Shown here: positions 1,548 through 2,612 of the stretch, piece by piece
Numbering within the stretch: position 1 is the stretch's first letter
How the letters are laid out: each line of letters starts with the position of its first letter
Assembly: GCF_014202975.1 (NCBI RefSeq)
Contig: NZ_JACHHZ010000002.1
Span: 744,001 to 808,000, forward strand
Source: Povalibacter uvarum
Lineage (GTDB): Bacteria > Pseudomonadota > Gammaproteobacteria > Steroidobacterales > Steroidobacteraceae
Length of the DNA stretch: 64,000 nt
Direction: 5' to 3'
Notes under the pieces: generated by a model
Seen by the model: only the letters and a program-made list of their open reading frames with translations
Databases searched by the model: none
What the model was told of the DNA's origin: nothing
Translations under genes and position numbers: made by a program

Positions 1548-2612
1548 GTGCTGGCCGGAATCGACATCGAGAACTTCCGCTGCATCGCACAGGCGCATCT
1601 GGAGTTCGATTCGCGAGGGACCGGCATCCTCGGTAATAACGGCTCGGGCAAGACGAGCTTGTTGGAAGCGATCTTCTTTCTGGGGCACGGACGCTCCCTA
1701 CGCACGAATACCCGCGAGAAGCTTCTCAAGCGCGGAGCTGATTTTTTCCGCGTTGTTGGACGCCTCGAGACGCCGCGCGGCAAGTTGGTCGCCGGCGCCG
1801 AGTACACAAATGGCCAGACCCGATCCCGGCTGGCTGGCCAGGGGATCTCCAGCCTTTCGGAGATCGCCGAAGTTCTTCCCATCCAGTTGATCGACCCGAG
1901 CGTGCACCGCTTGGTTGAGGAGGGCTCTGCCCGCCGTCGGCGACTGCTCGACTGGGGAGTGTTCCACGTGAAACATGAGTTCCTGGTTTCATGGAGGCGG
2001 TACCAGCGGGCACTGCTGCAACGGAATGCGGCCCTGCGAGCCGGCGAAGGCCTGGCCGTCATCTCTGCATGGGAGAAGGAGATGGCCGAATGCGGTTCCG
2101 TCGTTGACCAGGAGCGTGCGGAATACGCGAGCAGGCTGAAGCCAATCTTCGAGGAGCTGGCATCCAGCCTCCTGCCGAACCGAGCTTCCTTTGACTATCG
2201 CCGCGGGTGGTCCGTGGATGAGTCACTGGCCGAATCGCTCGCATCCAAGCGGTCCCGGGACCTCCAGCTACGGACGACATCCACTGGGCCGCACAGGGCG
2301 GACCTTACCTTCAAGACGGAGGGGGTATTGGCTCGAGATCTCGTGTCGAGGGGTCAGCAGAAGATGCTGGCGTGCGCGTTCATCCTGGCTCAGGTCCGCC
2401 TGCGAGCCGAGACGGCCCCGACGCCGACCTGCCTGTTGCTGGACGATCCGGCTGCCGAGCTGGATGTGGATAATTTGGGGAAACTTCTTCGGGCGATCGA
2501 ATCCGTGCCGTCTCAACTGATCGTCACATCGGTCACGGAAGCAGGGCTACGCGGCGTGAATATCCACAAAGTGTTTCACGTGGAACAAGGCGAATTCACC
2601 CCAATGCTATAA
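1548..2612 (+). CDS. recF: RecF, DNA gap-repair SMC-like ATPase
   Basis: The 354-residue RecF acts with RecO and RecR to load RecA at single-strand gaps. The Walker A motif GNNGSGKT is at residues 29-36, the RecF signature near [10 protein letters not shown], and the Walker B region [11 protein letters not shown] at about 296-306. The start is GTG at 1548, preceded by GGAAGG, and gives [12 protein letters not shown], the family N-terminus. The coding region holds two perfect parS sites, read as VFHVKH and VFHVEQ. The second Walker half is followed by a short C-terminal tail. The gene lies between dnaN and gyrB as in many gammaproteobacteria. Confidence 0.97.
1960..1975 (+). promoter_or_regulatory. 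parS site 1 (ParB-binding centromere) inside recF
   Basis: The 16-mer TGTTCCACGTGAAACA is identical to the classic Bacillus subtilis parS sequence and fits the general consensus TGTTNCACGTGAAACA. It lies in the recF reading frame about 1.6 kb from the candidate oriC. Chromosomal parS sites normally cluster near the origin and nucleate ParB for segregation and SMC loading. parA and parB themselves are not in this window. Confidence 0.9.
2572..2587 (-). promoter_or_regulatory. parS site 2, inverted relative to site 1
   Basis: TGTTTCACGTGGAACA is the exact reverse complement of the site at 1960-1975, so the two are identical parS sequences in opposite orientation, 612 bp apart. It overlaps the last codons of recF and ends about 18 bp before the gyrB extended -10 element, so bound ParB could cover the gyrB promoter. 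Confidence 0.9.

Follow-up and report, generated by a model that had tools for sequence, protein, structure and literature searches.

Two predicted parS sites in frame within recF beside a candidate origin, and their conservation in Gammaproteobacteria

The recF gene of the window (the whole 64,000-nucleotide stretch of Povalibacter uvarum DNA analysed here) contains two 16-mers that are, by sequence, parS sites at two fixed positions of the gene, with ParB binding predicted at both. Together they almost certainly form the chromosomal centromere, read in frame as part of RecF. This reading is supported because the perfect sites are unique in the genome, lie beside the candidate origin, coexist with par genes, and recur at the same recF codons in relatives. 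The arrangement is real and very probably functional.

Two sites in recF and their genomic setting

The sites belong to a replication gene cluster with the following features.

216 to 438, no strand assigned: AT-rich dnaA-dnaN gap with DnaA-box-like 9-mers, candidate oriC
439 to 1536, forward strand: dnaN, upstream neighbour of recF in the dnaA-dnaN-recF-gyrB cluster
1548 to 2612, forward strand: recF, containing both sites; GTG start, 354 aa; TIGR00611, E 1.2e-98
1960 to 1975, no strand assigned: predicted parS site 1, TGTTCCACGTGAAACA, in frame, recF codons 138-143, GTG TTC CAC GTG AAA CAT (VFHVKH)
2572 to 2587, no strand assigned: predicted parS site 2, TGTTTCACGTGGAACA, in frame, recF codons 342-347 near the C-terminus, GTG TTT CAC GTG GAA CAA (VFHVEQ)
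2641 to 5055, forward strand: gyrB, downstream neighbour of recF

An earlier note on this DNA had claimed two perfect parS sites in opposite orientation within recF, and both 16-mers are present where it placed them, inside the recF reading frame. Each has the form of the 16-bp near-palindrome TGTTNCACGTGNAACA expected of parS. A search of the window with up to 3 mismatches returned the same two places and no others; in 100 shuffled versions the mean was 0.30 matches, and a count of 4 was reached in none. In the draft genome (6,321,800 bases in 11 contigs, 98.28% complete), exactly these two perfect matches to TGTTNCACGTGNAACA are observed, with about 0.002 expected per genome under a mononucleotide model of the window's composition. 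The reversed-pattern control of TGTTNCACGTGNAACA over the whole 6.32-Mb draft genome gave 0 matches. Perfect matches are therefore neither many nor evenly spread; numerous and even matches were what the note had named as speaking against its claim. With up to two mismatches to TGTTYCACGTGRAACA allowed, the genome search gained six further places, spread over four contigs; the one closest to recF is about 118 kb away from it.

Both perfect sites adjoin the dnaA-dnaN gap and so cluster near the candidate origin. A scan with the DnaA box consensus found 9-mers in this gap at 218 (reverse strand) and 252 (forward strand), with one mismatch each, and a perfect one at 352 (forward strand). Beyond the window, immediately ahead of dnaA, there is a further perfect DnaA box. 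The distance of 1.5-2.4 kb between the sites and the candidate origin, as given previously, agrees with the gap and its boxes.

A parB and a parA-like gene, the pair on whose presence the claim had been made to depend, are also observed in the same genome. The parB gene lies outside the window at C2:824010-824909, about 77 kb further along than recF, and is the only TIGR00180 match in the genome (198.5 bits, cut-off 58.45). It is preceded by rsmG and by a gene for a ParA-like ATPase, for which ParA_partition is the best model (E 2.1e-30) and the best NCBIfam models score below their own cut-offs. The ParB sequence matches solved ParB/Spo0J/Noc chains, including the Caulobacter-type ParB 6t1f (E 1.1e-48). 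In the part of the Caulobacter study drawn on here, R173 and G201 are the conserved specificity residues (PMC7383237). Arg171 and Gly199 correspond to them by motif register, the Caulobacter chain being absent from the printed alignments, and supply the Arg and Gly of parS-type ParB. An identity as Noc, with NBS as its site, was rejected on the ParB-type Arg and Gly in place of QKKR and on the match of the site to parS. The 'nucleoid_noc' model scored 207.5 bits on this protein, short of the cut-off of 315 set for it. By RecF, Steroidobacter and Peristeroidobacter are the closest named relatives, and the genome was placed in Gammaproteobacteria for this reason.

The rsmG-parA-parB group (L041:14150-16912, genome C2) stands about 77 kb from recF, away from the candidate origin. 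The open reading frame directly upstream of rsmG gives the impression, by translation, of an oxidoreductase and not of gidA.

By analogy with relatives and general knowledge of ParABS systems, ParB would load on both recF sites as a clamp and may spread over the dnaA-dnaN-recF-gyrB region. ParA would then separate the sister origins shortly after passage of the fork, perhaps joined in this task by condensin.

The opposite orientation attributed to the sites stands only in part. They are exact reverse complements, site 2 being the reverse complement of TGTTCCACGTGAAACA, but the orientation of near-palindromes is incidental and hardly functional. Each site is symmetric at 14/16 positions, and the two differ only at position 5, a silent base of the Phe codon, and at position 12, where the Lys or Glu codon begins. 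When 105 recF pairs were typed at these positions, degraded sites included, two perfect palindromes formed the commonest type (30 of 105) and the forward/reverse combination occurred in the window's own pair alone. Opposite orientation is therefore not a conserved feature, and a functional meaning for it was rejected on that count (1/105). The spacing between sites ranges from 597 bp (G281) to 654 bp (G097) among the pairs listed; the 612-bp gap of the window is set by recF.

Conserved position and codon-level constraint

Conservation of position is observed in both sets of relatives. In the order sample of 117 genomes, at least one perfect site occurs in 72 and none in 45. The matches listed, which cover 55 of the 72 site-bearing genomes, comprise 75 perfect sites, and 74 of them sit in recF. 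The family profile match covers 41 of these, and the other 33 lie no more than 140 bp past its end, in the C-terminal tail. The lone exception among those listed belongs to a contig with no located recF. Scored against TGTTYCACGTGRAACA, site 1 shows 0, 1 or 2 mismatches in 42, 43 and 22 of 107 recF copies of this sample, while the same classes for site 2 hold 48, 30 and 6 of 105 readable copies, with more mismatches in 21. The class sample of 281 genomes contains a site with at most one mismatch in 243 and none anywhere in 38; the commonest number of such sites per genome, judged by eye, is two. Reversed-pattern controls gave 0 in most genomes of the order sample and 1 in G004 and G022, and 1 or 2 in some genomes of the class sample with one mismatch allowed. 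Eighty named loci, selected partly by peptides that span both sites, were excluded from the statistics. The recF position of parS looks apparently old, since in 225 of 247 ParB-positive recF copies at least one of the two codon blocks still holds a site with no more than one mismatch.

Some genomes depart from the usual layout. Class member G372 carries four perfect parS in an array of exact 62-bp spacing (G372:C157:5797-5998) and eight sites in total at up to one mismatch, and several other class members have parS pairs spaced about 25-43 bp. At L200 (G216), site 1 is lost, and the site 2 parS is joined, at a distance of 38 bp, by a one-mismatch parS just past the stop codon of recF. In G074, two recF copies on different contigs (L123 and L148) each bear parS-like sites; this duplicate perhaps reflects a mixed bin or a duplication.

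A comparison of recF codons among relatives, as proposed in the earlier note, points to selection on the DNA. For each column, the commonest synonymous codon was set against the expectation from the codon usage of each individual gene. Of 203 recF columns in the order sample, the top eight in synonymous conservation are the eight parS-forced codons, namely Val, His, Val and Glu at each site (z 8.5-13.6), and columns outside them reach z of at most 6.5. The Phe third base, for which parS allows C or T, behaves as an ordinary position (z 1.3 and 0.8 in the order sample). A second sample of 146 ParB-positive genomes gave the same picture, with the top seven of 195 columns parS-forced (z 8.8-17.5) and the next at 6.9. 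These z-scores count related genomes as independent, and the control consists of the other columns of the same gene. An explanation by codon preference alone was rejected, as the parS-forced columns exceed all other recF columns in both samples.

Individual positions are close to invariant. At site 1, His is CAC in 107/107 recF copies, Val is GTG in 106/106, and Glu is GAA in 87/88. The first codon of this site encodes Val in 76 copies, Thr in 18 and Ala in 13, and its third base is G in 107/107. For the second sample, a final G in the first codon was counted in 105/106 (site 1) and 130/130 (site 2), with a variable residue, over rows with at most two mismatches, a restriction that favours G constancy. 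The codons bear the mark of a DNA element that takes precedence over the protein. Silent third bases are held in place by selection on the 16-mer, as probably are some residues of the RecF peptides, and the parS codons appear preserved for the centromere. The proposal that centromere and RecF protein constrain each other holds, by the conservation of the parS-forced codons.

Sites, ParB and alternative explanations

An association between recF sites and ParB is observed across genomes. Among 169 recF genes, 136 of the 146 ParB-positive and 7 of the 23 ParB-negative rows retain a recF site with no more than one mismatch (Fisher 8e-11). Removal of four suspected draft gaps leaves 3/19 on the ParB-negative side (Fisher 6e-13). 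Pooling with the order sample sets the 225/247 ParB-positive copies, 22 of which thus lack such a site, against 13/29 ParB-negative ones (Fisher 1.4e-8). The order sample alone shows a site in 89/101 ParB-positive copies and in 6/6 ParB-negative genomes with recF read.

The 169-gene set combines the class, the order of G313, chosen genomes, and E. coli K-12. In the class, recF was matched in 232/281 genomes, and the 30 best matches plus 60 picked among those listed were read; in the order of G313, all 66 recF matches from 70 genomes were read. The chosen genomes were taken for a missing or weak ParB, or as relatives of such cases, so that ParB-negative rows are enriched by design. The contrast covers genomes with a recF match, ParB-negative genomes without one being left out. 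Rows with a weak ParB hit (G154, G264, G345, G408 and G411) were scored negative. E. coli was scored ParB-negative from PMC3909081, which states, in the part used here, that par genes are absent from Enterobacteriaceae and Pasteurellaceae; the general ParB family did match in the E. coli control. The four rows removed were G358 and G379, which have ParB-positive congeners, G362, for which ParB is present in the family but no closer, and G216, for which there was no relative to judge by. G295 was kept negative despite a ParB-positive congener.

Other ParB-negative genomes vary in what they retain. Reduced genomes G337 and G254, with no ParB hit, still encode MFHVK at site 2 with drifted silent bases, and their ParB-positive congener G137 has the codons intact, which hints that silent sites decay before residues. 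G401, also with no ParB hit, keeps site 2 with one mismatch. Four of the six ParB-negative order genomes, G030, G033, G111 and G112, may be draft gaps, as their congeners are ParB-positive. The order family f14 (G014, G028 and G040) has a ParB hit in 0/3 drafts, and the recF copies read (L187 and L186) have intact site cores at both positions; a draft gap, a divergent ParB or a recent loss would each account for it. In class family f41 (G141, G257 and G340; 3.4-4.7 Mb) there is no ParB hit and no parS at up to one mismatch, and a RecF search at E 1e-25 in the three genomes gave no match.

A RecF tree from which the site columns had been left out shows just nine changes of ParB status. Sign tests on independent pairs gave no significant result, with 7 supported pairs and at most three informative ones per site, and a few pairings run against the association. 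The independent losses behind the contrast are few and the drafts imperfect, and the cross-genome tie to ParB is suggestive, whereas the codon evidence is strong.

A contrary explanation is that RecF function itself needs FHV(E/K), and that the parS match is a by-product of these residues and codon preference. The peptide is indeed present at one or both places in 138/146 ParB-positive genomes. Under codon frequencies taken from four genes of the window, the chance that these residues by themselves yield the exact site is about 0.012 (site 1) and 0.043 (site 2), neither vanishingly small taken singly. However, silent third bases are frozen far beyond those of other conserved RecF codons, and the first codon of site 1 keeps its final G through changes of residue. 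The peptide itself is found in only 8/23 ParB-negative rows and is missing at both places in the other 15, E. coli included (CFHNEP and MFTVEK). Copies read from families f12 and f13 keep the site 1 core without the site 2 peptide, though ParB is found there. An origin of the match in RecF function is thus very improbable.

The palindrome could also be read by another DNA-binding protein, such as a regulator of recF or gyrB. CACGTG is a generic recognition palindrome, both sites are part of a replication operon, and the ParB-negative order genomes read all retain the site. Against this, these 16 bp are the established ParB site, as in the P. aeruginosa data cited (PMC4368675), the presence of the sequence is associated with ParB, and the genome has no further perfect copy. 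We regard a binder other than ParB as extremely improbable. The prospect that two random 16-mers arose by chance is practically nil and was rejected: the expected number per genome given above, the shuffles and the conservation in relatives all oppose it, and a single gene holds both copies, at codons where relatives have them too. A ParB-bound centromere within recF remains the preferred reading.

Wider meaning and comparison with known systems

A broader proposal is that the same two recF codon blocks have housed the centromere since early in the class in most of the Gammaproteobacteria with a retained ParABS. The parS nucleotides, and not RecF function, would dictate the silent codons and the FHVE/FHVK peptides, so that RecF changes there upon ParB loss. 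Because pooling with the order sample weakens the ParB contrast, our confidence in this proposal was lowered, and it now stands tentatively at somewhat below an even chance. If true, the sequence of a DNA-repair protein is partly written by the segregation machinery. The recF sites themselves offer a clear and quantifiable example of codon choice in a conserved protein, and perhaps the choice of residues too, being overridden by a functional DNA element. They also call for caution, as 'conserved' RecF motifs in Gammaproteobacteria may reflect the centromere and not the protein. The two-site centromere predicted here would be easy to map and testable by synonymous recoding.

The arrangement is not new in kind, being already known from parS1 and parS2 of P. 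aeruginosa. What is possibly new is its breadth and a centromere that dictates RecF residues; the added value lies in this breadth and in codon-level evidence for DNA constraint. A literature search of partial coverage, with the 2007 Livny survey outside it, found no report on parS codon constraint in recF. A text search of a ParB review and of the P. aeruginosa half-parS paper found no mention of recF.

In Bacillus subtilis, Spo0J and parS share the same 16-bp consensus class, the origin-proximal location and the placement of sites within genes. The sites there are more numerous than here and lie in other genes. Caulobacter crescentus ParB belongs to the same DNA-recognition class. In the portion of PMC5815017 considered here, the hot spot for inserted parS spans recF and gyrB, but the native parS cluster lies on the left arm, apart from that hot spot, whereas here the parS sites are in recF.

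The closest likeness is to P. aeruginosa, for which the statements below follow the cited portions of the reports. Its parS1 and parS2 are located in recF (PMC5521831, PMC3909081), as are the two sites of the window, the Pseudomonas location being taken from these papers and not from an alignment. Any one of parS1-4 is enough for segregation (PMC4368675). Excess ParB lowers the expression of genes around parS1-4, gyrB included; at native levels, ParB represses genes near the intergenic parS3 and parS4 but not near the intragenic parS1 and parS2 (PMC5521831, PMC3909081). Silent mutants of the intragenic sites, tested in vitro, generally had 2- to 10-fold lower affinity, with parS5 unchanged, and for silent parS1/parS2 mutants a ParB effect was undetectable in vivo (PMC4368675). 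The effect is carried by the DNA, because the mutants left the coding sequence unaltered. By our reading of the table in PMC4368675, the silent changes in parS1 and parS2 fit the reading frame of the window. The parS1 sequence, TGTTCCACGTGGAACC, has an outer variant that is also common in the order sample. P. aeruginosa thus resembles the window in having recF parS near oriC, the same palindrome and ParAB (PMC5521831, PMC3909081, PMC4368675). It differs in scale and layout, with ten parS and parAB about 7 kb from oriC, whereas the genome studied here has two perfect sites and a parB about 77 kb from recF.
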